Assembly: GCF_014189455.1 (NCBI RefSeq)
Contig: NZ_CP050296.1
Coordinates: 3,034,001-3,098,000, forward strand
Source: Mesorhizobium huakuii
GTDB taxonomy: Bacteria; Pseudomonadota; Alphaproteobacteria; Rhizobiales; Rhizobiaceae
Reading direction: 5' to 3'
DNA: 64,000 nucleotides
Positions 55,999 through 64,000 of this stretch are shown here, piece by piece; within the stretch, counting starts at the first letter, position 1, and each line of letters opens with the position of its first letter. The notes beneath the pieces were generated by a model, which was given only the letters and a program-made list of their open reading frames with translations, was not told the origin of the DNA and did no database searches. The position numbers and the translations under genes were made by a program.

Positions 55999-57543
55999 TC
56001 ACCCAGCCGGCGAAGCAAGTGGATCGAGCCAGGTATCATCAGTCCAGCCATTCTCGTCATAGTCGGCCATGCAAGAGTCGACGAGCTCCTCCATTGCCTT
56101 CAGCCGCCCGCCGCGTTCGGCGCCCTTCAGCACCTGCAGCCGCACCTCTTCCGGCGCGCCGGCATAATTGAGTTCATAAAGCGCGTGGCGGCCCCCGAAC
56201 TCGGTGCCGGTCGCGTCCCACAGCAGCTTCATGATCTTGATGCGCTCGACATGGCCCATGTCGTTGGAGCCGCGCACATATTGCGCCAGATATTTGTCGA
56301 TCTCGGGATTGTTGAAGTCGCGCACCGAAGACGGCAGGTAGATCAGCCCCGACGCGATCACGCGGCGCACCGTGTCGATGACGCGCGGATAGGCCTCCGA
56401 CATGAAGGTCCGGTAGGCAAGTGCGGCGTCGAGATTGGGCAGCACCGCCCCATTCGCCCACGGGATCGGGTTATAGGCCATGGCATTGGAAAAGCTCCAG
56501 AACATGTGCCTGAGCGCAATCACCTCGCCAAGTGCGGCCTGGTTGCCGCGGAAAGCATCGCCGCCGGTGGCGCGCAGCGCCTTGGCCAGCAGGCCGGCGA
56601 GGAAGTCGAGCTTGACGGCAAACCGCGTGCAGCCCTGAAAGCAATAGCCATGCATGAACCCCGACGCCGGATGGAACGACAGGATCTTCTGCGCATCGCG
56701 CAGCACCAGCACGTCCTCCCAGGGGATGAAGACATCGTCGAGCACCAGGATCGCGTCGTTCTCGTCGAAACGCGACGACAGCGGATAGTCGAAGGGGGCT
56801 GCCACCGTGTTGGCCGTCTGCTCATAGGAGACGCGGCAGAACATCTTGATCCCCGGCGCGTTCATCGGCACGATGAACATCACCGACAGCGACGGGTCCT
56901 CGGTAACGGTCGCCGAGCCCTGCGCCAGGAAATTGTAGTGCGTCAGCGCCGACGACGTCGCCACCACCTTGGCGCCCGAGACATAGATGCCGGCATCCGT
57001 CTCCTTGGTGATGTGGACGAACACATCCTTCACCTGCTCGGCCGGCTTGTGGCGGTCGATCGGCGGGTTGACGATGGCGTGGTTCATGAACAGCACGGCT
57101 TCCTGGGCTCTGCTGTGCCAGGACAGCGCATTGTCCTTGAACGGCCCGTACCAGTCGGCATTGGCGCCGAGCGTGTTCATCAGCGCCGCCTTGTAGTCGG
57201 GCGTACGCCCCATCCAGCCATAGGACATGCGCGACCACTCGGCGATCGCCGTCTGCTGGGCAGCGAGTTCGCCCGAGGATTTGGCGACGCGGAAATATTT
57301 GTGGGTGTAGCCGCCCGAACCGGTGTCGGTGGCCGAGGTCAGCGTGTCGCGCCGTTTCGGATCATGCAGCGCATCGTAAAGCCGCGCCAGCGACCGCACG
57401 GAATTGCGCATCGCCGGGTGCGTGGTGACGTCGGCGACGCGTTCGCCGTTGATATATACCTCGCGGCCGTCGCGCAGGCTCTCCAGATATTCGGCGCCGG
57501 TGAACGGGCGCGCTTTGTCCGCACGAAAATCTTCTGACCGCAT
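55999..57543 (-). CDS. hpaB: 4-hydroxyphenylacetate 3-monooxygenase, oxygenase component
   Basis: 514 residues, group-D flavin monooxygenase. It begins with YLESLRDGREVYINGERVADV, typical of HpaB, and has the FAD/substrate region FVHITKETDAGIYVSGAKVVA, DDVFIPWEDVLVLRDAQKI and GSNDMGHVERIKIMKLLWDA. It hydroxylates 4-hydroxyphenylacetate to 3,4-dihydroxyphenylacetate with FADH2 from HpaC. It is the first gene of the hpaBC operon, divergent from an AraC-type regulator that probably activates it. Confidence 0.95.
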   Translation of the reverse strand: MRSEDFRADKARPFTGAEYLESLRDGREVYINGERVADVTTHPAMRNSVRSLARLYDALHDPKRRDTLTSATDTGSGGYTHKYFRVAKSSGELAAQQTAIAEWSRMSYGWMGRTPDYKAALMNTLGANADWYGPFKDNALSWHSRAQEAVLFMNHAIVNPPIDRHKPAEQVKDVFVHITKETDAGIYVSGAKVVATSSALTHYNFLAQGSATVTEDPSLSVMFIVPMNAPGIKMFCRVSYEQTANTVAAPFDYPLSSRFDENDAILVLDDVFIPWEDVLVLRDAQKILSFHPASGFMHGYCFQGCTRFAVKLDFLAGLLAKALRATGGDAFRGNQAALGEVIALRHMFWSFSNAMAYNPIPWANGAVLPNLDAALAYRTFMSEAYPRVIDTVRRVIASGLIYLPSSVRDFNNPEIDKYLAQYVRGSNDMGHVERIKIMKLLWDATGTEFGGRHALYELNYAGAPEEVRLQVLKGAERGGRLKAMEELVDSCMADYDENGWTDDTWLDPLASPAG

Positions 57544-57558
57544 GATGTTCCTCCACTG

Positions 57559-57597
57559 ATAACGTCGATCCTAGCGCTCGGGCCGTGGATCGGTTAT
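57559..57597. promoter_or_regulatory. inverted repeat between hpaB and the AraC regulator
   Basis: ATAACGTCGATCC (57559-57571) is mirrored by GGATCGGTTAT (57587-57597), separated by 15 bp and located between the divergent genes. It is a possible activator site for the AraC protein; spacing and symmetry are the only evidence. Confidence 0.35.
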
Positions 57598-57636
57598 GGA
57601 CGGAACGGCAAAACCGATTGGACTTTTTTCGGCGCA

Positions 57637-58506
57637 ATGAGCCAGAATTCCATTCCCGATTTCTTCGTCTACGGCGAGCCGGTGCGGCCGCTCGATGTCG
57701 GCTTCCTGCACGTCGAAACAGTGCTGGCGCGCAGCAACATCCATCTCGGTCAGGTCGCGGCGCATAAGCATCCGCAGATGGGCCAGATCACCTACTGGAC
57801 CAGCGGCTCCGGCACCTACCGTATCGAGGACCGGTCCTGGGACTTTTCGGCGCCCGCCGTCAGCTTCGTGCCGAGCACCATCGTGCATGGCTTCTCGATC
57901 GGCCCCGGCACCGACGCCATCGTCGTCTCGGTCGCCGACGATGCGCTCGCCGTAATCGCGGGTCACAGCCTGCTGCCATTGGACAGGCCGGTATTCACTG
58001 ACGGCCTTCCGGACCGGGCCGCATGGAAGCAGTTGGCGGCGGTGCTGGAGATGATCGCCGCCGAATACACCGAGGCGCAAGCCGGCAACGACAAGATCCT
58101 GCCGGCGCTGATCGCTGTCGCACTCTCCCACATCGCACGTCTCGCTCCGGCGACCGTCGCAGCCGCCCAATCCTCTGAAGCTTCTCTGGCACTCGGCCTG
58201 CGCCGGCTTGTCGACGCACACTTCCGCGACAACTGGCCAGTCGACCGCTACGTCGAGACGCTGGCCACGACACCGCATCTTCTCGACAAGGCCGCCCATG
58301 CTGTGCTGGGCAGCGGCGTCAAGCGTGTGGTCAGCGAACGGCGGCTGCTGGAAGCCAAACGCCTGCTGCTGTTCACCGTGCGCACGGTCGAGGACATCGC
58401 CTACGAGATCGGTTTTGATGATCCCGCCTATTTCTCCAGGTTCTTTCGTGAGCGGGTCGGCGAGGCACCCGCCGCCTGGCGCCGGAAGCAGTTGCAAGGG
58501 CACTGA
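57637..58506 (+). CDS. hpaA: AraC/XylS-family regulator (HpaA-like activator)
   Basis: 289 residues. A cupin-like sensor domain (HKHPQMGQITYWTSGSGTY, SFVPSTIVHGFSI, about 45-100) is followed by two helix-turn-helix modules. The first is atypical and the second (RLLLFTVRTVEDIAYEIGFDDPAYFSRFF, in parts, about 247-275) is canonical. HpaA activates hpaBC in response to 4-hydroxyphenylacetate in enterobacteria. Position next to hpaB supports the same role here. Confidence 0.85.
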   Translation: MSQNSIPDFFVYGEPVRPLDVGFLHVETVLARSNIHLGQVAAHKHPQMGQITYWTSGSGTYRIEDRSWDFSAPAVSFVPSTIVHGFSIGPGTDAIVVSVADDALAVIAGHSLLPLDRPVFTDGLPDRAAWKQLAAVLEMIAAEYTEAQAGNDKILPALIAVALSHIARLAPATVAAAQSSEASLALGLRRLVDAHFRDNWPVDRYVETLATTPHLLDKAAHAVLGSGVKRVVSERRLLEAKRLLLFTVRTVEDIAYEIGFDDPAYFSRFFRERVGEAPAAWRRKQLQGH

Positions 58507-58553: not shown

Positions 58554-59966
58554 CTAACGCCCCTGCTGCTGGCGCGCTTCCCGCTTCTTGCGCCATGGCG
58601 CGTTGGCTTCCCAGTCGCCGGCCATGATACAGCCATAAGGCAGCACCTCGTCGACGACCTCTGCCAGACCAAAGTGCTCGATCTGGCGGCGCATCGAGGC
58701 CGCGTTCTTGTAGGCGCTCGGCAGCTCCGAAATATCCGTCACGCCGGAGAAGAAGCGGGCATCGATGCCTTTCGTCTCCTCAGCGAAGATATCGGCGTCG
58801 CTGCGCCCCGCCTGCATGCGCCGGTGCTGGGTGCGCGAGAAATTGCGCCCGGCGCCGTGCGGCGAGAAGCCAAGTCCGTGCGCCGCGTTCTTGCCGCGCA
58901 CGATCAACACCGGCTCCGCCATGTTGAGCGGGATCAGCGTCAGATCGGTCGCGTCGTCGGCCCAGTTGTCGAAGGCCGGCGTGGCGCCCTTGCCGTGGTA
59001 GAACAGCCCGTCCGAACGGCGGAAGACGAAGTTGTGTTCGTTCCAGAACCGGTTCGACACCTTCGCAGCCAGCTTTTCGGCCGCCAGGTCGTGGATGAGC
59101 ATGTGGTTGCCCTTGGTCCATTCGCGGATCGTTTGCAGGGCCTCCCAATAGTCATCGCCTTCCCGTGTATCGGCCGGAATCCAGGCGTTCTGCGGCAAGG
59201 TCTCCGGCGACAGCGTCTTGCGCACACCCTCGGCGATCTTCATGCCCTTGCTGTAGAGCCGCGCACCCGGCGAGCGCGAGCCGTGATGCGTAACCAGCGC
59301 CGTCTCGCCGCTCGACTTCAGCGTGCCGACATAGGCGAAATGGTTGCCGTCGCCCTGCGTGCCGAAATGCTCGATCGCGGCACTGGTCAGGTCGCGCAGC
59401 AAGGGGTTGGCCTCGAAACGCTCGAAGACCTCCTTGACCGGCCGGATCTGCTGGCCGCGCGGACGCCCACCCGGTCCGAAATGGGTGACCCCATGAACGG
59501 CATCGAGCAACACGGCCGGCGCGACGCCGGGAAACACCGAGATCGCCATCGAGCAGCAGATGTCGGCCGAATGCATGCCGGGATGGATCGCCTCCGACAC
59601 CGCGACGCCGCCGACCGGAATCGTGCCCGACGGACCGGCCGGGCAGGCATCCGGCATGATGGCGCCGGCGCGGATCATCGGCGTGCGCATCAGCTCGGCC
59701 ATCGAGCGCATCACCGCCTCGACATTGGCGGCCTCGTCAGGCGTTTCGGCCTCGATGTTGAGATGCAGCGGCATCGAGGAGGCGGCATGCAGCTTCATGG
59801 CCGGCGGCGGCGCGAAAGTACGCGCGGCCTCCAGCGCATCGCCCTGCGATCCGCCGTTCTCCAGCACGGCATTGGCGGCGGCGAGCGCCTTGCCGAACCA
59901 CTTGCCCTGCGGCATGCCGGCGTCGATCAAATCCTGTCCACTCAAAATCTCGGTCATGTCTTTCAC
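58554..59966 (-). CDS. rtcB: RtcB-family RNA ligase
   Basis: 470 residues from GTG 59966 (ATG 59957 is an alternative). RtcB joins RNA 2',3'-cyclic phosphate or 3'-phosphate ends to 5'-OH ends using GTP and manganese. Variant forms of the active-site motifs are visible: HPGMHSADICCSM with metal-binding Asp135 and Cys137, GTQGDGNHF (202-210), HHGSRSPG (227-234), FYHGKGATPAF, and SPHGAGRN with the guanylylated-His segment nearby. It is longer than E. coli RtcB (408) and diverged at several motifs. It lies 34 nt downstream of seven Y-RNA-like elements and rsr on the same strand. No rtcA cyclase gene follows. Confidence 0.9.
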   Translation of the reverse strand: MKDMTEILSGQDLIDAGMPQGKWFGKALAAANAVLENGGSQGDALEAARTFAPPPAMKLHAASSMPLHLNIEAETPDEAANVEAVMRSMAELMRTPMIRAGAIMPDACPAGPSGTIPVGGVAVSEAIHPGMHSADICCSMAISVFPGVAPAVLLDAVHGVTHFGPGGRPRGQQIRPVKEVFERFEANPLLRDLTSAAIEHFGTQGDGNHFAYVGTLKSSGETALVTHHGSRSPGARLYSKGMKIAEGVRKTLSPETLPQNAWIPADTREGDDYWEALQTIREWTKGNHMLIHDLAAEKLAAKVSNRFWNEHNFVFRRSDGLFYHGKGATPAFDNWADDATDLTLIPLNMAEPVLIVRGKNAAHGLGFSPHGAGRNFSRTQHRRMQAGRSDADIFAEETKGIDARFFSGVTDISELPSAYKNAASMRRQIEHFGLAEVVDEVLPYGCIMAGDWEANAPWRKKREARQQQGR

Positions 59967-60000
59967 TTTCGGTCCATATCAAGCACTGCGTATTGCGGAC

Positions 60001-60136
60001 GGACGACAAGGGAATGCGAGACATCTTTTCCGCCACTTCGCGAAGCTGCGAAGGAGGGACACGAACCCTCACGCCTTTCGGCACCCGCTTTCCTGAAGCG
60101 AGCCGCGTCTACCTGTAGTCTCGCAGGCATTCGTCC
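60001..60136 (-). ncRNA. tRNA-like Y RNA, unit 7 (nearest rtcB)
   Basis: On the minus strand the RNA begins GGACGAATGCC and ends CTTGTCGTCC. Terminal helix GGACGA/TCGTCC and inner helix TGCGAGAC/GTCTCGCA (8 perfect pairs) flank the conserved loops ATGCC and N4-CTTG. The body has GCCGAAAGGC (variable-arm-like hairpin), T-arm GAGGG-TTCGTGT-CCCTC, a looped acceptor-like stem CTTCGC/GCGAAG, and a D-arm-like GTGGCGGAA, as in class II (Leu/Ser) tRNAs. Confidence 0.82.
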
Positions 60137-60149
60137 TGTTCATTCGGTC

Positions 60150-60280
60150 TGGCGACAAGGGTCGGCAAGACAATAACTGAGCTACTTCCATCCTGAGACG
60201 GAAGGGATGGTTTGAACATCCGACCTTCCGCGACTTTCGCCGCGGACGCTCTGTCCCTGTAGTCCTGCCTGCATTCGCCA
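60150..60280 (-). ncRNA. tRNA-like Y RNA, unit 6
   Basis: Starts TGGCGAATGCA and ends CTTGTCGCCA. Inner helix is GGCAGGAC/GTCTTGCC (8 pairs, one G-U). A variable-arm-like hairpin TCCGCG...CGCGGA with a GAAAG loop precedes a perfect T-arm GGATG-TTCAAAC-CATCC. Acceptor-like stem CTTCCGTC/GATGGAAG is closed by TCAG, followed by TAGCTCAGTT as in a D-arm. Confidence 0.83.
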
Positions 60281-60299
60281 TTCATTCTCTTCCCTCGGC

Positions 60300-60394
60300 G
60301 GGCGACAAGTCGATGCGAGAAACCGATCGATCAACCGACCGACGGGCGGATTCTGAACCGCCAGATCCCAATGTATTCCCGCAGGCATTCGCCC
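60300..60394 (-). ncRNA. tRNA-like Y RNA, unit 5 (short form)
   Basis: Starts GGGCGAATGCC and ends CTTGTCGCCC. Inner helix is TGCGGGAA/TTCTCGCA. At 95 nt it is the shortest unit. A T-arm-like hairpin GGCGG-TTCAGAAT-CCGCC is present, but the acceptor part is degenerate and there is no clear D-arm. The usual CTACAG is ATACAT here, so it may be a decaying or specialised copy. Confidence 0.68.
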
Positions 60395-60406
60395 TGTTCA
60401 ATCGGC

Positions 60407-60535
60407 TGGCGACAAGGATCGGCAAGACGACGCTTGACTGCGCCACCCCGCTCCACGGAGCGGGAGAGTGATTTGAACACCCGACCTCCCGCCTTTCGGC
60501 GGGCGCGCTACCTGTAGTCCTGCCTGCATTCGCCA
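60407..60535 (-). ncRNA. tRNA-like Y RNA, unit 4
   Basis: Starts TGGCGAATGCA and ends CTTGTCGCCA. Inner helix GGCAGGAC/GTCTTGCC is identical to unit 6. A variable-arm-like hairpin CCCGCC-GAAA-GGCGGG is followed by T-arm GGGTG-TTCAAAT-CACTC, acceptor-like stem CCCGCTC/GAGCGGG closed by CGTG, and GTGGCGCAGTCAAG as a D-arm. It resembles a class II tRNA body. Confidence 0.82.
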
Positions 60536-60547
60536 TGTATTCGCGTC

Positions 60548-60677
60548 GCCGCGGCGACAAGGGATGATGAAACACCGGGAGTCCCGCTCGTGCCAGAGAG
60601 CGCCAGCAAGGTGAGGAGTCGAACCTCACGGAGCATCCCGTTATGGTGCTGTAGTTCCATCCGGCATTCGCCGCGGC
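60548..60677 (-). ncRNA. tRNA-like Y RNA, unit 3
   Basis: Starts GCCGCGGCGAATGCC and ends CTTGTCGCCGCGGC, a perfect 10-bp terminal helix. Inner helix is GATGGAAC/GTTTCATC. T-arm is GTGAGG-TTCGA-CTCCTCAC. The acceptor and D-arm part (GCTGGCGCTC...GAGCGGGAC) is more degenerate than in units 1, 2, 4 and 6. Confidence 0.77.
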
Positions 60678-60689
60678 TGTTCCTTGCGA

Positions 60690-60824
60690 GGTGTGACGAC
60701 AAGTCTGTTGTGAAACTGCCTTTCTGCTCTACCGACTGAGCTACGGAGCCGATTGGCAGCTCCGGCAGGAATCGAACCCGCGACCCGAAAGTTAGGATGT
60801 AGTTCCACAGGCATTCGTCACGCC
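60690..60824 (-). ncRNA. tRNA-like Y RNA, unit 2, with full permuted tRNA acceptor and CCA
   Basis: Starts GGCGTGACGAATGCC and ends CTTGTCGTCACACC. Inner helix is TGTGGAAC/GTTTCACA. T-arm GCGGG-TTCGATT-CCTGC leads into acceptor strand CGGAGCT-GCCA, then loop remainder ATC, then GGCTCCG, which pairs with the acceptor over 7 bp. The D-arm TAGCTCAGTCGGTAGAGCAG follows. The tRNA order is therefore circularly permuted (3' half before 5' half), with the Y stem in place of the anticodon arm. Confidence 0.87.
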
Positions 60825-60879
60825 GTTTGTTGAGTCCCTTTCTGTCCAGTTGCGAACGAAGCCGCGCAAAAAAGTCGTC

Positions 60880-61014
60880 GGGCATGACGACAAGGTTTGA
60901 CGAAACGTCCCGCTCTACCGCTGAGCTACGGGTCCATAGTGGCGAACCCGACGGGATTCGAACCCGCGACCTGGAGGTGAACAGCCTGTAGTTCCATCGG
61001 CATTCGTCATGCCC
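60880..61014 (-). ncRNA. tRNA-like Y RNA, unit 1 (nearest rsr), with full permuted tRNA acceptor and CCA
   Basis: Starts GGGCATGACGAATGCC and ends CTTGTCGTCATGCCC, giving a perfect 11-bp terminal helix. Inner helix is GATGGAAC/GTTTCGTC. T-arm GCGGG-TTCGAAT-CCCGT leads to acceptor CGGGTTC-GCCA, loop CTAT, then GGACCCG (7 pairs with the acceptor) and D-arm TAGCTCAGCGGTAGAGCG. It lies 97 bp downstream of the rsr stop and is presumably processed from the rsr operon transcript. Confidence 0.88.
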
Positions 61015-61062: not shown

Positions 61063-61116
61063 GTTTGACGCAATTCCGGACGGAAAAGCGCTCACTTTTC
61101 CTGGAATTGCTTAGAG
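61063..61116. repeat. partial copy of the intergenic repeat seen at 10339-10441
   Basis: It contains TTTGACGCAATTCCGGACGG, AAAAGCGCTCAC and TTTTCCTGGAATTGCTTAGAG, nearly the same as the 3' half of the copy at 10395-10440. Its right end overlaps the rsr stop codon (TTA at 61111-61113), so the element ends inside the gene. Confidence 0.75.
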
Positions 61117-62670
61117 TTCGACCGCCTCGATCGTGCGCACCCAATGGTCCGGGTCGCCGCTCGAGGACAGCATCGTGCCCACCACATCGAAGACGCGGTC
61201 GGAGAAACCACCGACATTCAATATGTCGGCCCGCGGCTTGGCCTGCGTCGTCGCATAGGGCTGGATGTCGATGCAGACCAGCTTGGCTGCCGGGTTCAAC
61301 CCCTTCAGCTTCTGCCATTCCTGCATCGTCGCCGTCCCCTGATGCGCATGCGCTGTCGCATCCACCCAGGACTGGTTGTCCGACACGAACACCACCAGGT
61401 CGACATCAGCCTTCTCACGCACCAGCCGTGCCAGCGGAGCCGAACAGTTGGTTCCGCCACCACCGATGGCGGCAAGCTTTGCGGCGTTGGTCATCACCGT
61501 GTCGCGAGCGTTGAGGCGGATATCCACCACATCGTTCTCGAACGGCAAGACCCTCGCCGTCGGGTTGCGTCGCAGCATCGCGGCGGCCACCAAGGCAGCC
61601 ACGTCGATGCAACGCACGGCCGAGGTCGCGCCCTTGCGGTAACCGGTCGCCGGCGAGCCCATCGAGCCCGAAACGTCCGGACACACGACCACCTTGCCCT
61701 TGATGCGGGGCACGTTGCCGAGCGCAATTTCCATTGCATCCTGCAGCGCGTCTCTGACCACGCCGGGCACCTCCGCACCGGCCATGGTGAACGCCACCAT
61801 GAGCTGATACGGGAACACCCGAGCACGCCGGACCTCTTCCGGGTCACGCAGCCGCGCCGCCAGCTTTTCGCCGAAACCTTCCACTTCGAACACGCCGTTG
61901 CGGGCGAAAGTGTTCAGGTTCTGGCGCAGCATCTGCCAGCCGGCCGTCGCCGCGATCTGCACCCAATGCTCCCGCGACAGCGGCATCGAGGTGAGCATCT
62001 GGAACGGCACTTCCGGCACGGGCAGCGACGGATCACGCTTGAAGGCCTCGAATGCCTTGACCACGTCCGGCAGCACCGCCACATCATGCGGCTTGCCGAT
62101 CAGGTAGCCATAAAGCGCCTCACGCGACGCCGACTTCGGCTTCGGGTGAACCATCTTGATGACATCGGCCAGCGACGGATCATTGCCGACCGCGGCCCGC
62201 ATGATCTCGAAGTCGGCCGCCTGCTCAAGCCACGCCTGGACAAGCCGCTTCGGCCGCGTGCCGAGCGACTTGCGCCCGGTGGCGCCCGAACGCATGACCT
62301 GCACGAAGTTGCGCAGCATCTTGCCGTTCCTGACGATACGCCCGAAAGCCCGGTTGAACTCGTCACCCTGCATCGCGGACAGAACGGCCAGCAGCAGTGC
62401 CGGCATGTCCTTCATGTAGCCCTGCTCGGAAGCGTGGACGGCGGTGCGCGCCAGGAACCCCGGCTCGACCTGCCACGCCAGCTTCAGCACTTCGTCCAGC
62501 TGCTCACGCGGCTCGGCATAGAAGGTCGCGTTGAACGTGCCCGTCGCCGCTAGCTGCGCCAGGGCCTGATGCGGCGACAGGCGGTAAGCCCTGGCGCCTT
62601 CACGGTTCCTGGCATCAGCCGGCGGGAGCAGCTTTCCTGCAATCGTCGCAAACACGGATTTGTTCGCCAT
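61111..62670 (-). CDS. rsr: Ro60/TROVE-domain protein (Rsr)
   Basis: 519 residues from ATG 62670 (AAGGA 8 nt upstream; ATG 62679 lacks spacing). Residues about 20-320 form the TROVE HEAT-repeat ring (YRLSPHQALAQLAATGTFNATF, GFLARTAVHASEQGYMKDMP, LVQAWLEQ). Residues 325-519 form a von Willebrand A domain with an intact MIDAS motif DVSGSMGS (332-339) and GGGGTNCSAPL. Ro proteins bind Y RNAs and misfolded or damaged RNA and can gate exonucleases. Sigma54 promoter upstream, Y-RNA-like array and rtcB downstream: the arrangement of the RNA-repair operon. Confidence 0.94.
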   Translation of the reverse strand: MANKSVFATIAGKLLPPADARNREGARAYRLSPHQALAQLAATGTFNATFYAEPREQLDEVLKLAWQVEPGFLARTAVHASEQGYMKDMPALLLAVLSAMQGDEFNRAFGRIVRNGKMLRNFVQVMRSGATGRKSLGTRPKRLVQAWLEQAADFEIMRAAVGNDPSLADVIKMVHPKPKSASREALYGYLIGKPHDVAVLPDVVKAFEAFKRDPSLPVPEVPFQMLTSMPLSREHWVQIAATAGWQMLRQNLNTFARNGVFEVEGFGEKLAARLRDPEEVRRARVFPYQLMVAFTMAGAEVPGVVRDALQDAMEIALGNVPRIKGKVVVCPDVSGSMGSPATGYRKGATSAVRCIDVAALVAAAMLRRNPTARVLPFENDVVDIRLNARDTVMTNAAKLAAIGGGGTNCSAPLARLVREKADVDLVVFVSDNQSWVDATAHAHQGTATMQEWQKLKGLNPAAKLVCIDIQPYATTQAKPRADILNVGGFSDRVFDVVGTMLSSSGDPDHWVRTIEAVEL

Positions 62671-62703
62671 TGTTCTCATCCTTCATTTTCACACCAGCAT
62701 CAT

Positions 62704-62720
62704 TGCAGGCAGCGTGCCAG
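62704..62720 (-). promoter_or_regulatory. sigma54 (-24/-12) promoter of rsr
   Basis: The minus strand reads CTGGCACGCTGCCTGCA, matching TGGCAC-N5-TTGCA with one deviation and the obligatory GG-N10-GC spacing. It is 34 bp upstream of the rsr start, and the divergent gene encodes the sigma54 activator RtcR. Confidence 0.88.
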
Positions 62721-62878: not shown

Positions 62879-64000
62879 ATGAAACGACGCGTTGCGATTG
62901 GCATTCTCGGCACAACGCTCGATGCCGGCCGTACCGAAGACCGCTGGCGGAAGTGGCGGCCAACGGTTGCGCTGTGCCAGCAGCCGGGATTGTTCATCGA
63001 TCGGCTGGAGCTCATCCATGGGACCCAGTCGCGGCAACTGGCCACGCAAATCATTGCCGACATCGAGCAGGTCTCGCCCGCCACCGAGGTCAGGCCGCAT
63101 CTGATCAGCATGCGCGACCCCTGGGATTTCAGCGAGGTCTACACTGGCCTGCGCGATTTCGCCCGCGCCTATCAATTCGATCCGGAGAAGGAAGACTACC
63201 TCGTCAACATCACCACCGGCACCCATGTCGCGCAGATCTGCTGGTTCCTGCTCACCGAGGCGCACTTCATCCCGGCGCGGCTGCTACAGCTTTCGCCGCG
63301 CAAGGAGGGGCGTGACGAGGACGTCTCCGGCAGCCATTCAATCATCGACCTCGATCTGTCGCGATACGATGCGATCGCCACGCGCTTCACCGCCGAGCAC
63401 GACGAGGCGACATCCTTCCTGAAGTCGGGCATTGCCACCCGCAATCCCGCGTTCAACCAGATGATCGACCAGATCGAGAAGGTGACGATCCGCTCGCGCG
63501 CGCCGGTTTTGCTCACCGGCCCGACAGGCGCGGGCAAGTCGCAGCTGGCCAGGCGTATCTACGAGCTCAAGAAAGCACAGCGACAGGTTTCCGGCGCCTT
63601 CATCGAGGTCAATTGCGCGACTTTGCGCGGCGACCAGGCGATGTCGACCCTTTTCGGTCACGTCAAGGGCGCCTTCACCGGCGCCCAGAACGAGCGTGCC
63701 GGGCTGATGAAGTCGGCCAACAAGGGCGTGCTGTTCCTCGACGAGATCGGCGAGCTTGGCCCCGACGAGCAGGCCACGTGCCTGCGCGCCATCGAGGAAA
63801 AGCGCTTCCTGCCGGTCGGCGCCGACCAGGACGTGATGTCGGATTTCCAGCTTCTGGCCGGCACCAACCGCGATCTGTCGATCGGCGTGAAGGAGGGCAA
63901 GTTCCGCGAGGATCTTTTTGCGCGCCTGAACCTGTGGACCTTCCAGCTGCCGGCGCTGCGAGACCGCAAGGAAGACATCGAGCCGAACCTCGACTTCGAG
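62879..64000 (+). CDS. rtcR: sigma54-dependent activator of RNA repair genes (RtcR), cut by window end
   Basis: 374 residues visible from ATG 62879 (AGGA upstream); the C-terminal DNA-binding domain lies beyond the window. The N-terminal RtcR/CARF-type sensor (VAIGILGTTLDAG, DPWDFSEVYTGLRDFARAY, YLVNITTGTHVAQICWFLL) occupies about residues 1-165. CARF domains bind cyclic or linear oligonucleotides or RNA ends. The AAA+ domain follows with Walker A GPTGAGKS (214-221), sigma54-contacting GAFTGA (264-269) and Walker B GVLFLDEIGEL (283-293). RtcR activates the divergent rsr operon. Confidence 0.94.
   Translation, partial: MKRRVAIGILGTTLDAGRTEDRWRKWRPTVALCQQPGLFIDRLELIHGTQSRQLATQIIADIEQVSPATEVRPHLISMRDPWDFSEVYTGLRDFARAYQFDPEKEDYLVNITTGTHVAQICWFLLTEAHFIPARLLQLSPRKEGRDEDVSGSHSIIDLDLSRYDAIATRFTAEHDEATSFLKSGIATRNPAFNQMIDQIEKVTIRSRAPVLLTGPTGAGKSQLARRIYELKKAQRQVSGAFIEVNCATLRGDQAMSTLFGHVKGAFTGAQNERAGLMKSANKGVLFLDEIGELGPDEQATCLRAIEEKRFLPVGADQDVMSDFQLLAGTNRDLSIGVKEGKFREDLFARLNLWTFQLPALRDRKEDIEPNLDFE

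Follow-up and report, generated by a model that had tools for sequence, protein, structure and literature searches.

What an RNA-repair operon would do with seven Y RNAs is the question raised by this locus, in which an array of small units lies between the genes for a Ro protein (rsr) and an RNA ligase (rtcB) within the 64,000-nucleotide stretch of DNA analysed here, hereafter the window. The reading we favour, with a probability of roughly 0.55, is that the array supplies an RtcR-controlled, ordered set of Rsr-bound tRNA mimics, held in different orientations, for enzymes that cleave or process tRNA. The locus would then be an RNA-repair operon whose usual one or two Y RNAs became an ordered array, in which every Y RNA carries its own tRNA mimic on a shared stem that presumably binds Rsr. 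The genes and the promoter that frame the array are the following.

58554..59966, minus strand: rtcB, a divergent RtcB with an HGAGR motif (PF01139, 116.7 bits)
61111..62679, minus strand: rsr, a Ro60-like protein of a divergent lineage (Ro60 vWA domain PF25045, 66.1 bits, above the Pfam cut-off of 27.7)
62705..62719, minus strand: sigma54-type -24/-12 site TGGCACGCTGCCTGC, a pattern match 26 bp upstream of the rsr ATG
62879..64000, plus strand: rtcR, divergent from rsr and extending past the window edge (PF06956, 274 bits)

The locus thus has the layout of an RtcR-controlled operon, i.e., a divergent rtcR, a sigma54-type site before rsr and an rtcB in the operon direction. Related loci were found with an Rsr alignment, and the best 80 of a larger number of matches were retained: 75 of these 80 have rtcR on the opposite strand and 69 carry rtcB on the same strand; in 22, a sigma54-type site is present no more than 400 bp from rsr, where about 0.013 would be expected per locus. 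With an alignment profile, the window Rsr matches the solved Rsr structure 2nvo at E 7.3e-29. Its TROVE match (PF05731, 22.4) is slightly below the cut-off of 23, and given it scores 87.7 bits against the equivalog NF041674, where the cut-off is 900, it is placed in a divergent lineage. The protein is 95% identical to one of an unclassified Mesorhizobium, and in a sample of 289 genomes of the class, 5, counting its own, have a match to it at E<=1e-30. The window RtcB matches the best solved RtcB structure at E 5.1e-8. The RtcA cyclase (PF01137) was not found in the host's own genome (8.45 Mb), hence the control circuit may differ from that of Salmonella. Past rtcB, positions 55999-58506 hold a gene for an HpaB-type 4-hydroxyphenylacetate monooxygenase and a divergent HpaA-like AraC regulator, both of which seem unrelated to the Y RNA array.

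The array itself occupies 60000-61010 on the minus strand and comprises seven Y RNA units resembling YrlA, in agreement with the original prediction of seven tandem Y-RNA/tRNA-like units between rsr and rtcB. Within the 64-kb window, CGAATGC followed by CTTGTCG within 60-160 nt occurs seven times on the minus strand and zero times on the plus strand, and all seven units have a Y stem with CGAAUGC and CUUGUCG. The predicted pairing of the unit ends as a stem is seen in the MFE folds of each of the seven. The motif GGA(A)CTACAG, which had been taken as shared, is exact in U1, U3, U4 and U6, and is altered in U2 (GGAACTACAT), U5 (GGGAATACAT) and U7 (AGACTACAG). The gaps from U1 to U7 are 62, 18, 14, 10, 17 and 11 nt, which replaces the earlier figures of 12-19 bp with 55 bp between the first two units. 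Describing the units as a single pattern captured the common Y stem, yet missed that their architectures differ, some being opened in the anticodon arm and others in the D-loop, as listed below.

60884-61010, minus strand: U1, Y stem and a complete cloverleaf permuted at 28/29 (RF02553 71.6 bits; complete-cloverleaf test)
60975..60987, minus strand: anticodon-type hairpin of U1, AGG CTGTTCA CCT, immediately 3' of CTAC
60693-60821, minus strand: U2, Y stem and a tRNA-like insert opened at the anticodon loop (RF02553 71.3 bits)
60551-60674, minus strand: U3, Y stem, a T-arm-like hairpin and a further hairpin with CTCTCTGGCA
60406-60536, minus strand: U4, Y stem placed within the D-loop; D halves at 60505-60512 (3') and 60438-60445 (5')
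60299-60395, minus strand: U5, a short unit with a T-arm-like hairpin and one more hairpin (RF02553 40.8 bits, below the cut-off)
60149-60281, minus strand: U6, Y stem placed within the D-loop; D halves at 60248-60257 (3') and 60177-60184 (5')
60000-60137, minus strand: U7, Y stem placed within the D-loop of a class-II body resembling tRNA-Leu; D halves at 60105-60113 (3') and 60029-60035 (5')

A covariance search with the Rfam YrlA model (RF02553), proposed earlier as a check, recovered six of the seven units at E<=1. Only U1 and U2 exceed its gathering score of 69, whereas U5, U4, U6 and U7 fall below it (40.8, 32.1, 31.1 and 27.9 bits, respectively), and U3 has no match at E<=1. The YrlA insert order, i.e., T arm, acceptor and D hairpin with an opening at the anticodon, is held by U1 and U2. 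It is broken in U6 and U7, where the D arm is split to both sides of the insert, and by comparison likewise in U4. When 14 of the best 80 rsr loci were scored, 10 of 84 units passed the gathering score, and none of the 28 D-loop-type units in those loci did. Such scores show that the Rfam YrlA model overlooks most array units of this kind. A weak Rfam tRNA match at 60757-60935 (27.0 bits, below the cut-off) was rejected as a gene; it combines the D arm of U1 with the T arm of U2, which are separated by 112 positions.

In native order, ARAGORN called no tRNA in any of the seven units, nor anywhere in the 64-kb window. U1, U2, U4, U6 and U7 were un-permuted by cutting out the Y stem, restoring the order and adding ends to all five, with an artificial loop in U1 and U2, and a tRNA was called in each of the five tried. 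A circularisation test was also applied, in which the insert is closed without added bases and a tRNA is required across the junction. A total of 184 of 377 units gave such a match, versus none of the 377 in each of three dinucleotide shuffles, and a native-order tRNA was called in one of the 377. The remaining 193 gave no match, a point against the favoured reading. In the window, U1, U2, U4, U6 and U7 match across the junction, and U3 and U5 are incomplete tRNA mimics by the same test. Among the 157 matches scoring at least 105, the junction falls in the anticodon arm in 122, in the D-loop in 23 and elsewhere in 12. Five more genome stretches, three from other families (L206-L208) and two from the same genus (L209 and L210), hold 24 units with 11 junction-crossing matches. 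By sequence and comparison, five of the seven window inserts are circularly permuted tRNAs, and the break at which the Y stem is attached differs among them, lying in the anticodon loop, in the anticodon stem at 28/29 or in the D-loop. This anatomy of the array is well supported.

The individual units differ in how they fit. U1 scores 121.5 with ARAGORN across the junction, its acceptor linker begins with GCCA, and its hairpin at 60975..60987 is a 13-nt insert relative to the Rfam consensus; taken alone, however, it folds otherwise, with an MFE of -46.3 versus -37.4 for the cloverleaf. U2 has a 5-bp anticodon stem between its two halves, an ARAGORN score of 119.2 and a constrained fold of -44.4 versus an MFE of -45.4; no likeness is claimed for its ATCCTAA as an anticodon loop (cct according to ARAGORN). 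Neither a cloverleaf nor an ARAGORN match was found for U3, whose motif recurs in 47 units in 46 loci. Short units with a T loop number 31 in 30 loci; the window's U5 is untyped in that scheme.

In the class to which U1 belongs, a full cloverleaf broken at 28/29 was found in 59 of the 113 units with good T, acceptor and D arms, versus 3.29 expected after shuffling the hairpin segment. These 59 come from 55 loci and the window, and include records from Beta- and Gammaproteobacteria, Verrucomicrobia and Bacteroidota. Two pairs of the anticodon stem involve the 3' part, three come from the hairpin directly after CUAC, and the loop has 7 nt. Given the register was fixed by requiring the stem, stem pairing there is a product of the selection, and the real tests are restricted to the loop letters, the lower pairs and the shuffles. 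Among 35 distinct combinations of stem and loop, position 32 is C or U in 35, position 33 is U in 30 and position 37 is a purine in 30, while 21 different triplets occur. Of the 50 units in a related set filtered for U33, 45 form both lower pairs; reassigning the partners across units gives 32.2 (sd 1.8). Many units have similar bodies (acceptor GGACCCG/CGGGUCC), several being nearly constant, while the loop varies. The anticodon-loop framework is kept, whereas the triplet differs from genome to genome.

Another register for the anticodon loop was tried and set aside as poor, with U33 in 20 of 57 rows, a weak signal. The triplets GUU, GUC and GUA are frequent (13 of the 35 distinct combinations, among which related sequences are not independent); tRNAs for Asn, Asp and Tyr have these anticodons. 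Near the start of some Mesorhizobium arrays, units (L060_2, L062_1, L064_1, L069_2, L209_2 and L210_2) join a Leu/Ser-type D arm to a Leu-type anticodon loop, so that body and anticodon agree. The loop is TTCAGGT in these units, except for TTAAGGT in L210_2, and the window's U2 is a different unit at the same place in the array.

Such loops invite the explanation that U1-type units are bait for anticodon nucleases, i.e., decoys or sentinels which, after cleavage, would be repaired by RtcB or send a signal to RtcR. The 59 units with an anticodon stem and a 7-nt loop, the pattern at positions 32, 33 and 37 with its 21 triplets, the near constancy of several tRNA bodies and the viral contigs described below, which carry Rsr together with dense tRNA genes, are all in its favour, as is the finding that 36 units satisfy Y32-U33-R37 jointly versus 0.25 expected. 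However, 54 of the 113 anticodon-class units lack the arm in the cloverleaf test, C33 occurs in 13 of the 59 cloverleaf units, the window's own U1 loop (CUGUUCA, 7 nt) has C37, and a tetraloop replaces the anticodon loop in U4 and U6. We consider this explanation, too, rather unlikely.

U4, U6 and U7 present a different order. After CUAC comes the 3' half of the D arm (U4 GGUAGCGC, U6 GGGACAGAGC, U7 GGUAGACGC), followed by a hairpin at the anticodon position, the variable region, the T arm, one acceptor strand, a short linker and the other acceptor strand, with the 5' half of the D arm at the insert end (U4 UGGCGCAG, U6 UAGCUCAG, U7 UGGCGGA). In U4 and U6 the hairpin at the anticodon position is closed by a GAAA tetraloop and there is no anticodon loop. 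For U6 the permuted fold is the MFE (-59.5), the ARAGORN score across the junction is 103.6 at offset 12, and the score with R1, a model of the D-loop class, is 125.2 bits, U6 being part of the R1 alignment. For U7, which lies outside that alignment, R1 gives 69.1 bits, the permuted fold is again the MFE and the junction is also at offset 12; the nearest tRNA of the genome is tRNA-Leu(CAG), at 36.0 versus 12.0 for shuffles (sd 2.1, maximum 19.5). U4, included in the R1 alignment, scores 112.1 bits, but two results speak against its placement: its best circular ARAGORN match has the junction at offset 29, outside the D-loop register, and its MFE is -64.2 versus -60.7 for the permuted fold, with the 5' D half in a local hairpin. 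A tRNA-Pro-like D arm was considered for U4 and dropped, the best matches being Met and Gly, with Pro fifth.

In all, the set of D-loop-class units numbers 78, of which 11 are Leu-like. Since the class had earlier been defined with D pairing as a criterion, the set used for covariation was reselected by 5'-segment length, T arm and acceptor, and not by D pairing. Two of the 80 rows collected (L079_3 and L087_4, both U3-type) were dropped, and thinning of similar rows then reduced the 67 class-I rows to 42 and the 11 Leu-like rows to 6, the 42 class-I rows forming alignment A2. The original prediction held that base pairs should be conserved in homologous loci, and in this class they are: in the 42 rows 93.5% of cells are paired versus 76.0% (sd 0.7) after shuffling, both sides have changed in 30 of 37 pairs, and the covariation score is 0.488 versus 0.172 shuffled, a signal destroyed by sliding the partners. 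The Y stem is conserved and covaries in the same alignment. Across the 42 rows, 97.6% of the D-helix cells are paired, and RNAalifold predicts this helix unaided; its covariation is small, with one pair being AU in 35 rows and CG in 4, and another having one double change.

These results bear on two further explanations. The first is that the array consists of tandem tRNA-like repeats in decay, without function. Its patchiness would agree with this, given strong D-loop-class matches (E <1e-20) are present in 18 of 119 Mesorhizobium genomes; in a sample of 299 genomes from the phylum, 5 have matches of at least 90 bits. Lower R1 matches, at roughly 30-60 bits, were left uncounted (E<=1e-4 in 46 of the 119 and 98 of the 299 genomes), since ordinary tRNAs or anticodon-class units seem to account for many of them. 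Decay is nonetheless very improbable in view of the compensatory changes throughout, the unit order shared between loci, and the presence of the same D-loop class in two Verrucomicrobia MAG loci (L129 and L132).

The second is that these are permuted tRNA genes, from which the Y stem is removed and the ends are joined by RtcB to give working tRNAs. The cloverleaf of U1-type units is complete, RtcB is encoded next door, and in algae the break of permuted tRNA genes lies in the D-loop or the anticodon loop, according to the passages cited (PMC3978253). The acceptor linker moreover starts with NCCA in 58 of 115 anticodon-class units, but it does so in only 2 of 57 D-loop-class units and 0 of 10 Leu-like ones. 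With no anticodon loop in U4 and U6, a Y stem that is conserved and covarying, and ordinary tRNA genes already present in the genome (48 matches), this explanation is hardly credible, and nothing indicates that array units mature into working tRNAs.

A unit finder located 370 units in 79 regions downstream of rsr, among the best 80 loci of more matches, versus 2 units in dinucleotide-shuffled copies and 6 in 71 2-kb regions upstream of rsr. At least two units are present in 78 of these best 80 related loci, with a range of 2-8 per locus and a median of 5; hence other genomes share such arrays, and a seven-member array is not unusual in this Rsr lineage, contrary to what had been supposed. With units typed by letter (A, anticodon; B, D-loop; L, Leu-like D-loop; C, U3-type; M, U5-type; -, untyped), the window array reads AACB-BL, and relatives read AACBMBL (L057, L060), AACB- (L080, L081, L084) and BMAAA (L129, L132). 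Of the 377 units, 33 received looser types (t 28, a 5) and 65 remained untyped. Array order is largely shared among Rhizobiales loci. In the available flanks of three loci of a Deinococcus-like Rsr lineage, no array was found and the finder returned 0 units; a single YrlA match, below the cut-off, is present in one of them (L213).

Rsr homologs are also present on 42 IMG/VR viral contigs (L159-L200), many of them 100-500 kb long (e.g., L186, L199, L162 and L159). At least one ARAGORN tRNA is found in 28 of the 42 viral loci, the most being 35 (L186), followed by 34 in L199, and rtcB is found in one (L174). Of 40 viral candidate units, 12 gave a tRNA across the junction, one of which (offset 3) is probably an ordinary tRNA; one viral unit is of the D-loop type (L186:4235-4387).

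The shared order also bears on a further alternative, in which the known YrlA function is multiplied: each unit would tether Rsr to PNPase and gate its substrates, and additional copies would increase dosage or substrate range. The Y stem and the operon are the same as for YrlA, and YrlA does connect Rsr with PNPase, and is modified by DusA and TruB, according to the passages cited (PMC8394870). Dosage alone, however, leaves unexplained both the permutation registers in a shared order and the conserved anticodon-loop framework, and we consider this alternative rather unlikely.

The favoured reading, an ordered set of Rsr-bound tRNA mimics, would work as follows. When tRNAs are cut, RtcR would turn on rsr, the array and rtcB; the passages cited have RtcR activated by tRNA fragments (PMC7790460). 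Rsr would grip the stem of each Y RNA and so hold its tRNA body in a set orientation, with an acceptor end that is closed and presumably unchargeable. Enzymes that act on tRNA by cutting, modifying, degrading or repairing it would then meet these bodies as adaptors or competitors. An anticodon arm would direct a unit to anticodon-directed enzymes, and D-loop-opened units with capped anticodon arms would address enzymes that recognise the T arm and acceptor, while the true tRNAs would be religated by RtcB. That anticodon nucleases are among the target enzymes is a bolder reading. A role as a set of scaffolds or decoys, as originally suggested, is plausible.

More speculatively, the array might present an evolving assortment of tRNA surfaces and anticodons, as a Ro-bound RNA defence against tRNA-cleaving toxins in bacteria and large phages. 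The almost constant U1-type bodies with their changing triplet would then be decoys for anticodon nucleases, or sentinels that RtcB can reseal, and the D-loop-opened units would be bait for enzymes recognising the T arm and acceptor. We advance this only tentatively. What matters is that a conserved array with one stem, to which tRNA mimics are attached at different points, makes the role of bacterial Ro and Y RNA testable, because each tRNA surface can be matched to the enzyme it attracts.

Among known systems, the closest is YrlA (RF02553; Salmonella YrlA, PDB 6CU1), which shares the Y stem, the tRNA-like insert, the adjacency to rsr and the RtcR operon, and whose structure superposes on tRNA through a circular permutation in the passages cited (PMC11472068). 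Its opening in the anticodon arm is known and is the same in U1 and U2, whereas U4, U6 and U7 are opened in the D-loop; U1 also keeps an anticodon arm, an insert relative to the Rfam consensus. The array also departs from YrlA in having seven units of mixed architecture, of which U3-U7 are under the Rfam score or unmatched. As to function, passages of PMC7790460 propose YrlA as a competitive inhibitor of anticodon nuclease, and report that YrlA fragments were not seen in Salmonella with cut tRNAs; in the same passages, Hughes et al. place the role of Ro protein and Y RNA in RNA-repair operons outside the scope of their study (PMC7790460).

The Salmonella rsr-yrlBA-rtcBA operon, as described in the passages cited (PMC9879122, PMC7790460), has rsr, Y RNA genes, rtcB, a divergent rtcR and a sigma54-type site, all of which recur in the window. 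It differs in having two Y RNAs rather than seven, and the window's Rsr and RtcB are divergent and its genome has no RtcA. In the permuted tRNA genes of red algae and archaea, too, the two tRNA halves are swapped and the break lies in the D-loop or the anticodon region (passages of PMC3978253), but here the break bears a conserved stem and several units are without a usable anticodon. In the literature searched, to which the main YrlA papers do not belong, no description of Y RNA arrays, or of D-loop-opened or anticodon-bearing Y RNAs, was recognised. Judged against Rfam and the literature passages, what appears to be new here is the inserts, i.e., permuted tRNAs that are opened in the D-loop or bear an anticodon; a single RNA scaffold here carries tRNAs permuted in more than one register.
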